Program-made: the position numbers and the translations under genes
Origin: Halorubrum sp. DM2
GTDB taxonomy: Archaea; Halobacteriota; Halobacteria; Halobacteriales; Haloferacaceae
Direction of reading: 5' to 3'
NCBI RefSeq assembly: GCF_901686465.1
Contig: NZ_LR594487.1
Coordinates: forward strand, 1,919,650-1,983,649
DNA: 64,000 bases
Part shown: positions 11,258-28,222 of the stretch, piece by piece
How the letters are laid out: every line of letters begins with the position of its first letter
Numbering within the stretch: the first letter of the stretch is position 1
Notes under the pieces: generated by a model
Told to the model about the DNA's origin: nothing
Databases searched by the model: none
Seen by the model: the letters and a program-made list of their open reading frames with translations, nothing else

Positions 11258-11302
11258 CATGACCGCCGGAGATACATCCATGACCGTCGAGGAGGTCGAC
11301 AG

Positions 11303-12970
11303 ATGACGATCAAGGAGTTCAAGCTACCCGACGTCGGCGAGGGCGTCGCGGAGGGCGAACTGGTCTCGTGGCTGGTCGCGCCCGGCGACCGCGTCGAGGA
11401 GGACCAGCCCGTCGCCGAGGTCGAGACCGACAAGGCGCTCGTCGAGGTCCCGTCGAGCTACGACGGCGTCGTCGAGGAGCTGTTCGTCGAGGAGGGCGAG
11501 ATGGTCCCGGTCGGCGACGTGATCATCTCGTTCCGCGTCGACGAGGAGGGCGGCGAAGCCGTCGACGCGGCGGCGGGCGACGCGGAGGCGGGCGGCGGTG
11601 AATCGGACTCCTCCGCGGGCGAGGAGGCGGAACCGGAACCGAGCGCCGGAGACGAGTCCGACGCCGAGCCGGACGACGACCGAGCCGACCCCGAACCCGA
11701 CACGCCCTCGGGCCGGACGTTCGCGCCGCCGTCGGCGCGGCGGCTCGCCCGCGAACTCGGCGTCGACGTCGCGGCCGTCGACGGGAGCGGTCCCGGCGGT
11801 CGCGTGAGCGAGGCCGACGTGCGGGCACACGCGGCGGGCGACGCCGCCGACGCGGACGACGCCGGCTCGGGACCGCGGCCGACGCCGACCGACGCCGGCT
11901 CGGACGGACGGAAGTCCGCGGTGAGCAAGCGCGACGCCGGCGGATCCGCGGCGTCCTCGGCGGCAGCCGCCGGCGGTCCGGAGCCGGCGAGCCGAGAGAC
12001 GACGCTCGCGACGCCCGCGACGCGGAAGGTCGCGCGCGACCGCGGCGTCGACATCGACGACGTCCCGACCGACGAGACCCGCGACGGCGAGGCGTTCGTC
12101 ACGGCGGAGGCCGTGAACGCGTACGCGGACGCGCTGGAGGCGGCGTCGACGTCGGCGGCCGAATCGGACTCGGCCGAACCCGCCGGAACCGAATCCGAGC
12201 CGAGCGACCCCGAACCGGCCGACCTCGGGGACGCCGGCGTCGCCTCGACCGACGCGCCGAGCGAGACCGCCGCCGGCGACGAGACCGTCCCCTACCGGGG
12301 CGTCAGGCGGACCATCGGCAAGCAGATGGAGCGGTCGAAGTTCACCGCGCCGCACGTCACCCACCACGACACCGCCGAGGTCGACTCCCTCGTCGACGCG
12401 CGCGAGGAGCTGAAGCCGACGGCGGCCGCGGAGGACGTGAAGCTCACCTACATGCCGTTCGTGATGAAGGCCATCGTCGCCGGCCTGAAACGGCACCCGT
12501 ACCTCAACAGCGAGCTCCGCGAGGACGACGAGGAGATCGTCTTGAAAGGCGACTACAACCTCGGCATCGCGGTCGCGACCGACGCCGGACTGATGGTCCC
12601 GGTCGTCGAGAACGTCGACGAGAAGGGGCTCTTCGAGCTTGCCGAGGAGGTCAACGACCTGGCCGCCCGCGCCCGCGAGCGGAAGCTCAAACCCGCGGAG
12701 ATGAAGGGCGGCACGTTCACGATCACCAACTTCGGTGCCATCGGGGGCGAGTACGCCACCCCGATCATCAACTACCCCGAGACCGCAATCTTAGGGCTGG
12801 GAGCCATCGAGGAGCGCCCCGTTGTGCGCGAGGGCGAGGTCGTCCCCGCGCCGACGCTCCCGCTGTCGCTTTCGATCGACCACCGGGTCGTCGACGGCGC
12901 GATCGCGGCCGAGTTCGCGAACACCGTCATGGAACACTTAGAAAACCCGCTGCTGCTACTCAACGAATAA
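11303..12970 (+). CDS. pdhC: 2-oxoacid dehydrogenase E2, dihydrolipoamide acyltransferase
   Basis: This 555-residue E2 core protein has an N-terminal lipoyl domain with the lipoylated Lys44 in ETDKALVEV. A first peripheral-subunit-binding domain lies at ~141-176 (PPSARRLARELGV...GSGPGGRVSEADV). A second, degenerate one at ~236-275 keeps the ATPATRKVARDRGVD helix but lacks the GSGPGGR loop. Long acidic Ala/Asp/Ser linkers separate the domains. The catalytic acyltransferase domain (~325-555) ends with the active-site HRVVDG. It transfers the acyl group to CoA. Its stop codon overlaps the E3 start by one base. An in-frame upstream ATG at 11281 is not used in this call. Confidence 0.94.
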   Translation: MTIKEFKLPDVGEGVAEGELVSWLVAPGDRVEEDQPVAEVETDKALVEVPSSYDGVVEELFVEEGEMVPVGDVIISFRVDEEGGEAVDAAAGDAEAGGGESDSSAGEEAEPEPSAGDESDAEPDDDRADPEPDTPSGRTFAPPSARRLARELGVDVAAVDGSGPGGRVSEADVRAHAAGDAADADDAGSGPRPTPTDAGSDGRKSAVSKRDAGGSAASSAAAAGGPEPASRETTLATPATRKVARDRGVDIDDVPTDETRDGEAFVTAEAVNAYADALEAASTSAAESDSAEPAGTESEPSDPEPADLGDAGVASTDAPSETAAGDETVPYRGVRRTIGKQMERSKFTAPHVTHHDTAEVDSLVDAREELKPTAAAEDVKLTYMPFVMKAIVAGLKRHPYLNSELREDDEEIVLKGDYNLGIAVATDAGLMVPVVENVDEKGLFELAEEVNDLAARARERKLKPAEMKGGTFTITNFGAIGGEYATPIINYPETAILGLGAIEERPVVREGEVVPAPTLPLSLSIDHRVVDGAIAAEFANTVMEHLENPLLLLNE

Positions 12971-26187: not shown

Positions 26188-26432
26188 GCGGACCGACGAC
26201 CTCGATTTGACGGGCGACGATTCGGTGAACGGCGATTCGACGGACTGCGACGCAGCGCGGCGGATCGCGTGTCGACACTCGGCGGACCGCGTGGAGGGTA
26301 ACGCACGCCCCGCCGTCGGTCCCGGCCCCAAATAACTGTGTGGGTGGCTCCCTCCGTCCGGGGACGGACGCCCGATTCCGTGGTGTACGTTGACAACCGC
26401 GGCGGCGAGGCAACGCCTGCCCCCGCCGAAGG

Positions 26433-26440
26433 CTTATACC
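26433..26440 (+). promoter_or_regulatory. TATA box for the ACT-homoserine dehydrogenase operon
   Basis: The octamer CTTATACC is the clearest TATA-like element in this GC-rich gap. With the usual ~25 bp distance, transcription would start about 26460-26464, right at an ATG (26464). That ATG opens a 46-codon frame ending in an overlap with the ACT gene start. Confidence 0.55.
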
Positions 26441-26463
26441 CGATCGTCCGACTCAGTTCGGGT

Positions 26464-26604
26464 ATGCAGACGGGCACGACTCCCCTCTGGCGCGCCGCGG
26501 CGGAGCCACCGAGCGATCGCTCCACGTCGGGGACAGGAACGTGTCCGCGCACGCCGACCCGCGACCGAACCGTTCGCGCCGGAGTGGCGGGGGTGGCGGC
26601 GTGA
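26464..26604 (+). CDS. Possible threonine-rich upstream peptide of the hom operon
   Basis: This is a 46-codon frame whose ATG lies at the predicted transcript start, so it could be translated leaderless. Nine of 46 residues are threonine (positions 3, 5, 6, 21, 24, 26, 30, 32 and 36), about three times the usual share. Its TGA (26602-26604) overlaps the GTG (26601) taken as the ACT gene start, so ribosomes finishing it could restart on the ACT gene. It may be a chance frame. The interest is its position before a threonine-pathway enzyme gene. Confidence 0.3.
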   Translation: MQTGTTPLWRAAAEPPSDRSTSGTGTCPRTPTRDRTVRAGVAGVAA

Positions 26605-27221
26605 GCGACGGTCGCGACGGGGCTCCCGAGGCCGCGCCCGACGGGGCCGACGGGGTCGACGCCGACGCGGACTCAGATCCCTCCCCCGACGGCGGCCACG
26701 CGGCCGCGACGCCCTCGACCCACACGGTCCGGCTGGAGCTCGTCGACGAGCCGGGCCAGCTGCTCGCCGCGCTCCAGCCGATCGCGGACAACGGCGGGAA
26801 CCTCCTGTCGATCTACCACGAGCGCGGGAACAAGACCCCGCGCGGTCGGATCCCGGTCGAGGTCGACTTCGAGGCGACGCCGGAGCGGTTCGAGGAGATC
26901 GTCGACGCCCTCCGCAGCGAGGGCGTGAACGTGATGCAGGCCGGGACGGAGCGGTACGCCGAGGAGGTGACGATCCTCCTGTTCGGGCACCTCATCGACA
27001 CGGACCTCTCGGACACGCTCTCGCGGATCGAGGCCTGCGAGTCGGCCTCCGTCGCCGACGTCTCGCTGGCAGCGCCGCAGGGGACCGAGGAGGTGTCGAG
27101 CGCGCGCCTCCGGCTCGAAGCCCGGGCGGGCGAGACGGACGCGGCGCTCGCGGCGGTTCGCGACCTCGCCGCGGAGAAGGAACTCCGCGTCGTCGAGCCG
27201 CTCACGGGGGTGGAGGCGTGA
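26601..27221 (+). CDS. ACT-domain amino-acid-sensing protein, partner of homoserine dehydrogenase
   Basis: This 206-residue protein has a Gly/Asp-rich disordered N-terminus (~45 residues). An ACT domain follows (HTVRLELVDEPGQLLAALQPIADNGGNLLSIYHERG), the classic beta-alpha-beta amino-acid-binding unit, then a second half containing SVADVSLAAP. Its stop codon overlaps the GTG of homoserine dehydrogenase (GTGA, 27218-27221), so the two are made together. The dehydrogenase here lacks its own ACT domain, which suggests this protein is its feedback-sensing regulatory subunit. The start is taken as GTG 26601; GTG 26541 in the same frame is possible. Confidence 0.85.
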   Translation: MSDGRDGAPEAAPDGADGVDADADSDPSPDGGHAAATPSTHTVRLELVDEPGQLLAALQPIADNGGNLLSIYHERGNKTPRGRIPVEVDFEATPERFEEIVDALRSEGVNVMQAGTERYAEEVTILLFGHLIDTDLSDTLSRIEACESASVADVSLAAPQGTEEVSSARLRLEARAGETDAALAAVRDLAAEKELRVVEPLTGVEA

Positions 27222-28222
27222 GACTCGCCGTGATCGGCGCGGGCGCGGTCGGGCGCTCGGTCGTCGAACTCGCGGGCGGGTACGGCCACGAGGTCGTCGC
27301 TGTCGCGGACTCGTCGAGCGCGGTCGTCGCGGACAGGGAGGGCGGGGCGGCCGGTACGGGCGGCGATGGCGTCGGTGTCGACGCGGATGCCGTCGTCGCA
27401 CGGAAGGCGGAACGCGGGATCGTCGGCGACGACAACCCCGACGACGCGCTCGCGGCCGACTACGACGTCCTCGTCGAGGCGACGCCGACGACGCTCGACG
27501 ACGCCGAACCCGGCTTCTCGCACGTGACTCGCGCGCTGGAGCGCGACCGCCACGCAGTGCTCGCGAACAAGGGCCCGGTCGCGGAGCGGTTCGGTGACCT
27601 CCGGGCGGCCGTCGACGGCAGCGACGGCGAGATCCGGTTCGAGGCGACGGTCGGCGGCGCGATCCCCGCGGTCTCGACCGTCGAGGACATCGAGCCGGGC
27701 CACGTTACCGCGGTCCGCGGCGTGCTCAACGGGACGGCGAACTTCATCCTCACGCGGATGGCCGCGGAGGGGCTCGACTACGACCACGTGCTCGCGGAGG
27801 CGCAGGACCTCGGTGTCGCCGAGGCGGACCCTTCCTTCGACGTGGACGGCACCGACGCGGCGCTCAAATGCGTCATCCTCGCGAACGTGCTCTCGTTCGG
27901 CGCGGCCGACGACCCGGCGGACGCGCGGGAGTTCACGCTCGACGACGCGGACGTGGAGGGCATCCGCGACGTGCCCGGCTCCGCGCTCCGGCTCGCGGCC
28001 GAGGACGGGCGGACGGTGCGGCTGATCGGCGAGGCGACCGGCGACACGGTTCGGGTCGCACCGCGGCTCGTTCCCGAGAACGGGACGCTCGCGGTCTCTG
28101 GCACCCAGAACATCGTCCAGATCGAGACCTCCCACGCCGGCCGGCTCAACATCTCCGGTCGCGGCGCGGGCGGCCCCGAGACCGCGAGCGCGGTGCTGGG
28201 CGACGTGGGGCGGCTGGAGTAG
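27218..28222 (+). CDS. hom: Homoserine dehydrogenase
   Basis: This 334-residue enzyme reduces aspartate semialdehyde to homoserine, a branch point for threonine and methionine. It has the Rossmann motif IGAGAVGRSVVEL at the N-terminus. ANKGPVA and ATVGGAIPAV, which contribute the catalytic Lys and substrate site, follow, then GTANFILTRM and an EAEADPSFDVDG-like segment typical of the family. There is no C-terminal ACT domain; the ACT protein is encoded immediately upstream with overlapping stop and start codons. The GTG start is fixed by that overlap. It is followed by the tuf promoter. Confidence 0.94.
   Translation: MRLAVIGAGAVGRSVVELAGGYGHEVVAVADSSSAVVADREGGAAGTGGDGVGVDADAVVARKAERGIVGDDNPDDALAADYDVLVEATPTTLDDAEPGFSHVTRALERDRHAVLANKGPVAERFGDLRAAVDGSDGEIRFEATVGGAIPAVSTVEDIEPGHVTAVRGVLNGTANFILTRMAAEGLDYDHVLAEAQDLGVAEADPSFDVDGTDAALKCVILANVLSFGAADDPADAREFTLDDADVEGIRDVPGSALRLAAEDGRTVRLIGEATGDTVRVAPRLVPENGTLAVSGTQNIVQIETSHAGRLNISGRGAGGPETASAVLGDVGRLE

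Follow-up and report, generated by a model that had tools for sequence, protein, structure and literature searches.

A coupled upstream ORF with conserved threonine codons before the ACT-domain and homoserine dehydrogenase genes of haloarchaea: a candidate ribosome-mediated leader

Threonine operons of bacteria are controlled by leader-peptide attenuators of the thrL type, leaders of the ermC type act by translational attenuation, and those of the TnaC or arginine attenuator type act by arrest of the nascent peptide. To our knowledge, control by amino acids that are sensed through the ribosome is known only from bacteria and, in other forms, from eukaryotes, and we know of no case in archaea. 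In haloarchaea, translation is initiated mostly on leaderless mRNAs, and Shine-Dalgarno (SD) motifs serve mainly for reinitiation. Here we describe a short upstream ORF (uORF) that lies before, and overlaps the start of, the genes for an ACT-domain protein (ACT) and homoserine dehydrogenase (hom) in Halorubrum sp. DM2 and its relatives, and compare this hom leader with the systems described so far.

The hom leader resembles the thrL type in that a short ORF with Thr codons, together with RNA stems, precedes genes of the threonine pathway. It differs by its leaderless-looking start, its archaeal host, a stop placed over the start of the next gene, which should link the translation of the two, and the absence of a T-tract: across 78 loci, the longest T run between the ATG and a point 60 nt past the uORF stop, where an intrinsic terminator would need one, is 1-4 nt. 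Transcription termination of the bacterial type is therefore unsupported at this leader. With the ermC type it shares a leader ORF placed to act on the downstream gene, possibly through an alternative RNA structure, and with the Corynebacterium ilvB uORF, as far as the available part of that report goes (PMC10272879), a leader ORF acting on the downstream gene. A difference is that freeing an SD reportedly does not allow de novo initiation in haloarchaea, and the competing pairing of the 5′ strand of the hom leader with the ACT SD (P0) is marginal (p 0.033 among 16 short uORFs). Nor does the hom leader resemble a nascent-peptide arrest leader, as conserved C-terminal arrest residues are lacking and the peptide tail varies in length and sequence except for its SD-coding end. 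Finally, a short ORF by the gene start has been proposed to boost translation by reinitiation, with stalling at regulatory codons lowering reinitiation (Korolev 2016, PMC4833913, in the part available); the hom leader shares that arrangement, the difference being that the proposal concerns bacteria and comes from genome statistics.

In Haloferax volcanii, an amino-acid-binding-protein gene and hom form a pair that is strictly coupled by termination-reinitiation: according to the part of the report available, translation of the downstream ORF is lost after an early stop in the upstream one, and the downstream SD gives no fresh initiation (PMC6728339). The hom leader is like this pair in its 4-nt overlap and internal SD, and unlike it in that the upstream partner there is the amino-acid-binding gene, before which no uORF is described in that part of the text. 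Haloarchaeal uORFs in long 5′-UTRs are on record for the same species (Babski 2016, PMC4983044; UTRs of 150-250 nt, ORFs of 15-31 aa, 16 uORFs listed); hom is not in Table 2 of that paper, whose available part gives no codon content or mechanism. Full-text searching of part of the literature gave, among the matches listed, no report of a uORF before a haloarchaeal hom and none of amino-acid attenuation in archaea.

In the window, i.e. the whole 64,000-nt stretch of Halorubrum sp. DM2 DNA that was analysed, the sequence-only reading had described a TATA box, an ATG at 26464, a frame of 46 codons with nine Thr and an overlap between its stop and the GTG start of the ACT gene, and these facts were right (Table 1). 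The Thr codons are numbers 3, 5, 6, 21, 24, 26, 30, 32 and 36. Nine Thr in one 46-codon ORF are by themselves unremarkable and make weak evidence: in a sample of 409 ATG ORFs of 40-52 codons from 464 kb of the Halorubrum sp. DM2 genome (nested starts counted, the target ORF included), 15 (3.7%) reach at least nine Thr, with a mean of 3.7. The layout, on the other hand, is uncommon in this genome, where only one other ORF of 7-70 codons in 464 kb combines the TATA spacing with an overlap with the start of a frame of at least 120 codons. This other ORF, at window positions 11280-11306, has eight codons (MTVEEVDR), a TATA-like element and an internal SD, and it overlaps (ATGA) the gene for a lipoyl-dependent 2-oxoacid dehydrogenase E2.

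Table 1. Features of the hom leader and the genes behind it in the Halorubrum sp. DM2 window
Feature	Position	Strand	Remarks
Palindrome GGCAACGCCTGCC, GGCA-N5-TGCC	26409..26421	+	Candidate transcription-factor site/operator, 55 nt upstream of uORF ATG
TATA box TTATA	26434..26438	+	30 nt 5′ of uORF ATG 26464
uORF	26464..26604	+	46 codons, frame MQTGTTPLWRAAAEPPSDRSTSGTGTCPRTPTRDRTVRAGVAGVAA
P1 stem, 5′ strand	26471..26483	+	CGGGCACG and TCC; holds Thr codon 5; from duplex and strand-swap test
P2 hairpin core	26502..26523	+	GGAGC (26502-26506) / GCTCC (26519-26523)
Rare Thr codon ACA, codon 24	26533..26535	+	At P2/P1 junction
P1 stem, 3′ strand	26536..26547	+	GGA and CGTGTCCG; from strand-swap test
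SD-like GGGGGTG of ACT gene	26589..26595	+	Within last uORF codons
GTGA overlap	26601..26604	+	uORF stop TGA 26602-26604 / ACT start GTG 26601-26603
ACT-domain protein gene (PF01842)	26601..27221	+	206 aa
hom, homoserine dehydrogenase (PF00742)	27218..28222	+	334 aa; GTGA overlap with ACT gene, 27218-27221

The ACT protein was matched in every genome searched (52 of 52 in the genus, 119 of 119 in the family and 155 of 155 in the class). The first set of loci comprised 85 distinct upstream regions, nearly all from the own family (Halorubrum, Haloferax, Halogranum, Salinigranum and others). An ATG at a fixed spacing from the TATA box is found in 79 of them, and 78 of these 79 ORFs, whose frame was not preselected, end in a GTGA or ATGA overlap with the ACT start (L046 being taken on its own in-frame ATG; later counts use the 78 in-frame uORFs). 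A leaderless transcript is marked by a TATA box about 25-30 nt before the start codon, and here the spacing, counted after TTATA or TTTAT, is 30 nt in 75 of 79 loci and 28-31 nt overall. The uORF transcript is thus most likely leaderless, and from the two conserved ends we infer that the uORF is translated from its ATG to its stop. The 78 uORFs have 26 different lengths, the shortest being 12 and the longest 67 codons, and parsimony on the ACT-gene tree gives 41 changes in length, a number that tree error could inflate. Mean column identity among 18 diverse loci is 90% for the TATA box and 75% for the first six codons vs 55% for the stretch between the TATA box and these codons. The last uORF codons carry an SD pattern, loosely defined, at 77 of 78 loci.

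The one exception, L014 (a Halorubrum), has one C fewer in a C run and its uORF is out of frame, which is either an assembly error or a real loss. No ATG at the TATA spacing was found at L048, L098-L100, L103 and L122 among the 85 loci; at L048 there is none within 900 nt either, and the genome of L122 yielded only a 59%-identical paralog. A second batch from the own family, which partly duplicates the first, comprised 21 loci, two of them without a readable core, and a coupled uORF is present at 15 of the 19 readable ones, among them L176 and L190, whose overlap is 8 nt, and L183, which starts with GTG. L188 shares the start of the peptide and is out of frame, L184 is ambiguous, and no coupled uORF was seen at L177 and L185. 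With its frame, its distance from the TATA box, its stop overlap and its Thr positions all retained across relatives, the uORF is far beyond what chance would give.

Thr is the commonest residue of the 78 uORFs, with 17.4% in the uORF frame vs 5.0% and 5.1% in the other two. In the set of 18 diverse loci, Thr takes up 106 of 610 codons in the uORF frame vs 32 of 592 and 34 of 592 in the others, the uORF frame being strictly the highest at 15 of the 18. This excess is positional, being placed at codons 3 and 5 and at an ACA near codon 24: in 83 long uORFs, codon 3 is Thr in 66, codon 5 is Thr in 70 and codon 4 is Gly in 80, and the Thr codon used is ACG in 66 of 66 and 66 of 70 cases at codons 3 and 5, respectively. 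The rare codon ACA stands in frame between codons 20 and 28 in 88 of 93 long uORFs, compared to 2 and 3 in the other frames (no hand-picking, duplicates between batches included), and is absent in frame at L014, L050, L184, L190 and L134, the last of which is the ACT gene itself. ACA makes up 113 of 551 Thr codons in the uORFs, whereas the ACT genes at these loci use it for 18 of 713. The P2 hairpin described below does not fit into five uORFs of 17-22 codons, which still have 3-5 Thr. Enrichment along the whole uORF was rejected for the own clade, where Thr after codon 32 is 6.9% vs 12.1% and 0.7%; over 39 uORFs of at least 41 codons the tail has 11.6% vs 7.8% and 3.5% in the other frames, and the variable tail is not convincingly enriched, with no enrichment whatever in the own clade. 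A coding substitution pattern was not found in codons 2-20 of 59 leaders (mean changes 2.8, 4.7 and 4.3 at positions 1, 2 and 3), as expected if this segment also forms RNA stems. Selection at the RNA level would likewise give the prevailing ACG at codons 3 and 5 and the near-fixed ACA, which counts against Thr sensing. The sequence-only reading had made its proposal depend on whether the relatives keep the overlap and the Thr enrichment: the overlap is kept (78 of 79 ORFs), the enrichment is kept in close and fairly distant relatives (17.4% vs about 5%), and loss of the frame or of its Thr content in close relatives did not occur.

Two RNA stems were recognized in the leader. P2 is a hairpin that ends at or just 5′ of the ACA, and in P1 codons 3-8 pair with bases 3′ of the ACA, enclosing P2; in Halorubrum sp. 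DM2 only the inner stem of P2 is well formed. Both were assessed by swapping strands among 19 leaders that are less than 80% identical, 10 hand-picked later loci being among those used. Cognate strands pair better than swapped ones for P1 (−16.9 vs −12.3 kcal/mol, 0 of 5000 permutations) and for P2 (−14.6 vs −12.35 kcal/mol, p 0.0014), and four control pairings showed no cognate advantage (p 0.20-0.91). The signal comes from the short-uORF genera: for the diverse set's three long uORFs, which are of the type found in Halorubrum sp. DM2, P1 gave −13.6 vs −13.75 (p 0.495), and the Halorubrum sp. DM2 leader itself has z-scores of −1.5 (P1) and −1.3 (P2). Some nucleotides of P2 and the ACA are nearly invariant. 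Folding energies of 13 leaders compared to shuffles gave no signal across the set (z −2.4 to +1.1), and RNAalifold on a plain MAFFT alignment returned a mixed structure. With 12 leaders placed in one register, two pairs had changes on both sides, a number equalled by 199 of 500 shuffles, and the covariation score was equalled by 1 of 500.

When the first 75 nt were cast as a covariance model, 32 of 60 family genomes gave matches and the other 28 gave none. The 19 strongest, several of which are the model's own sequences, all lie directly upstream of ACT, and 10 weak ones (E 5e-4 to 0.01) lie elsewhere. In the own genome the hom leader scores E 7e-11 and the next match 0.08, i.e. there is one copy. 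Searching positions 26200-27000 against Rfam gave one match at E≤1, which was below the gathering threshold and on the opposite strand.

Outside the own family, a coupled uORF behind a TATA-like element occurs in 38 of 46 readable loci from eight other families, picked by eye with a loose TATA pattern, so that a few may be chance. These uORFs have 7-70 codons (7-18 in 31 of the 38) and overlaps of 4, 8 or 11 nt; Thr ranges from 0 to 13% by family, and 9 of the 38 have no Thr at all. One family (f2) has the P2 hairpin and an in-frame ACA at 3 of 5 loci (ACAACA at two), with no Thr at codons 3 and 5. At L134, L167 and L168, among others, the ACT gene is apparently leaderless and without a uORF. 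Another family (f4, L151-L166) has a mini-uORF before ACT that often reads MTTxGRPxxGGDxDG; its overlap is 8 nt, and its TATA element is mostly TTTTAC. Because these families keep a coupled uORF with few or no Thr, the coupled uORF seems to predate the Thr codons. Judged from these comparisons, ribosome loading appears to be the ancestral role, and the structured leader with its Thr codons a later elaboration. Control by Thr is likely, though unproven, to have been added onto an older loading uORF.

Leaders that may belong to the same category were seen at other genes. At 10 of 14 pheS loci (L247-L252, L256-L259) there is an upstream ORF of 24-29 codons that ends in a Phe run, as in MALERATAGIARRADGDAFGFFFN from a Halorubrum and MASEPHSRCPARKQQDGPGFGFFFAA from another family (runs AFGFFF and FGFFFA). 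Between this ORF and the pheS ATG lie 89-178 nt in which no T run exceeds 3, a GC-rich stretch adjoins the ORF on its 3′ side, and judging by this layout it looks more classical as an amino-acid leader than the hom leader does. As a background, at least four Phe occur in 149 of 6246 ORFs of 8-60 codons. Such a Phe leader is absent before pheS in Halorubrum sp. DM2 and three other genomes among the 14 loci. For H. volcanii, the available part of Babski 2016 (PMC4983044) lists uORFs upstream of pheS (26 aa) and of the gene for a tryptophan-tRNA ligase (23 aa). An accessory, bacterial-like trpS is preceded by small ORFs with WRW at 3 of 3 loci, from three families (relative to the trpS match, L281 at −437, MRAAPATRRWRWHPPG...; L282 at −469, MIAVRWRWRVPS...; L283 at −551, MKPAPAWRWQPPS...), two of the three with a TATA-like element; no WRW leader was seen at archaeal-type trpS loci. 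Phe runs before pheS and WRW before the accessory trpS make amino-acid-specific leaders in haloarchaea more credible. No leader of the hom kind was found at 13 thrC loci, and 12 thrS loci gave no convincing Thr-rich ORF, the one Thr-rich small ORF there having no TATA. A different element, a conserved ORF of 70-72 codons behind a TATA box, lies 514-600 nt upstream of the thrC match at L261-L269; with its paired CxxC motifs (CDxCGxPTT, CPxCF), it likely encodes a small zinc-finger protein.

On balance, we lean towards a mechanism in which the uORF starts the ACT-hom transcript and feeds a coupled cascade, and in which the speed of ribosomes at its Thr codons sets the loading. It builds on the observed frame, Thr positions, overlap, strand covariation and single own-genome copy. 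A ribosome would start at the 5′-terminal AUG of the uORF, terminate at the TGA, within the overlap with the ACT start, and begin anew there, as reinitiation at ACT is suggested by the published Haloferax work, and ACT would feed hom by the same kind of overlap. On its way the uORF would thread the two-stem RNA (P1 around P2) predicted for the own family and 3 of 5 loci of one other family; the ACA lies at the P2/P1 junction, and in the own family the 5′ strand of P1 contains or adjoins Thr codons 3 and 5. The supply of threonyl-tRNA would determine how fast ribosomes move at the Thr codons, hence how open the 5′ end is and how many ribosomes are loaded: after a fast ribosome has passed, P1 would close, while one slowed at the ACA would prevent both stems from forming until the next ribosome has started. 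With about 8 nt between the AUG and P1, a closed P1 should impede leaderless initiation.

By extension from the strict coupling of the Haloferax pair, the uORF should be the main entry to the operon. Strict coupling also implies that, when Thr is short, simple stalling of ribosomes at its codons would yield less hom, opposite to the bacterial logic; a slowed ribosome that holds the stems open like a wedge, which we propose as one possible arrangement, would restore the expected sign. The dependence of loading on Thr, and its direction, are what we infer. Thr-dependent ribosome control of loading is the most likely role of the leader beyond coupling, with the chances for and against about balanced and the direction unproven. 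The sequence-only reading had proposed an archaeal uORF sensor of threonine supply; of this, a leaderless-looking uORF, coupled by its layout, with Thr codons kept in relatives stands, whereas the lack of a poly-T tract, a coupled uORF that seems older than its Thr codons and the unenriched tail in the own clade speak against it.

The same locus could be read with less. As leaderless mRNAs account for most initiation in haloarchaea, with SD serving mainly in reinitiation, the uORF could simply deliver ribosomes to ACT, its Thr codons having no part in sensing. This would suit the 7-70 codon coupled uORFs at 38 of 46 loci of the other families, 9 of 38 being Thr-free, as well as the SD-like motif inside the uORF end (77 of 78) and the strict coupling published for the Haloferax pair (PMC6728339, part available). 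We nevertheless find such plain loading rather unlikely, as it explains neither the in-frame ACA (88 of 93), nor the excess of Thr in a single frame, nor the two covarying stems. The stems could in turn be the functional part, P1 and P2 with the conserved CGACAACA forming an aptamer, or a site for a protein, through which the start is opened or closed; the ACT protein itself would perhaps be the binder, and the uORF would only pass through. Strand covariation, near-invariant nucleotides in P2 and the ACA, the missing coding substitution pattern and the single own-genome copy are all compatible with an RNA element, but the ACA keeps to the uORF frame (88 of 93 vs 2 and 3), uORFs too short for P2 still have Thr codons, and no Rfam family scored above threshold, and we regard this as quite improbable. 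Both alternatives are made slightly less favoured by the Phe and WRW leaders.

The threonine response could also lie upstream of the transcript, in transcriptional control at the palindrome, with a constitutive leader. GGCA-N5-TGCC is placed exactly 55 nt before the uORF ATG at 54 of 78 loci, and the looser pattern GGCAACGNMTGCC occurs twice in the own genome vs three times for a reversed-pattern control; still, 24 of the 78 leader-bearing loci lack the palindrome and the conservation of the leader would go unexplained, making this very improbable. That the selected product is a functional microprotein, as the N-terminal MQTGT or MRTGT of 56 of 83 long uORFs could suggest, is hardly credible for a peptide whose length runs from 12 to 67 codons and whose codons 2-20 have no coding pattern.

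At hom, the slowed ribosome in the leaderless Thr-codon uORF would control loading of the cascade atop an older uORF. That haloarchaea have ribosome-mediated amino-acid leaders of this kind (Thr for hom, Phe for pheS, WRW for the accessory trpS) is a tentative proposal, to which we give somewhat less than an even chance. The same leader, with 35 codons, is present in several Haloferax species (e.g. L045, L091, L096), a genus that is tractable for testing. If true, the hom leader would be the first such attenuator in archaea, and if its Thr codons set the expression of homoserine dehydrogenase, an archaeal amino-acid pathway would be controlled with the translating ribosome as its sensor. Even without sensing, the locus shows how leaderless initiation and SD-dependent reinitiation can be combined, with the uORF as the entry point of the operon in most haloarchaeal families examined.
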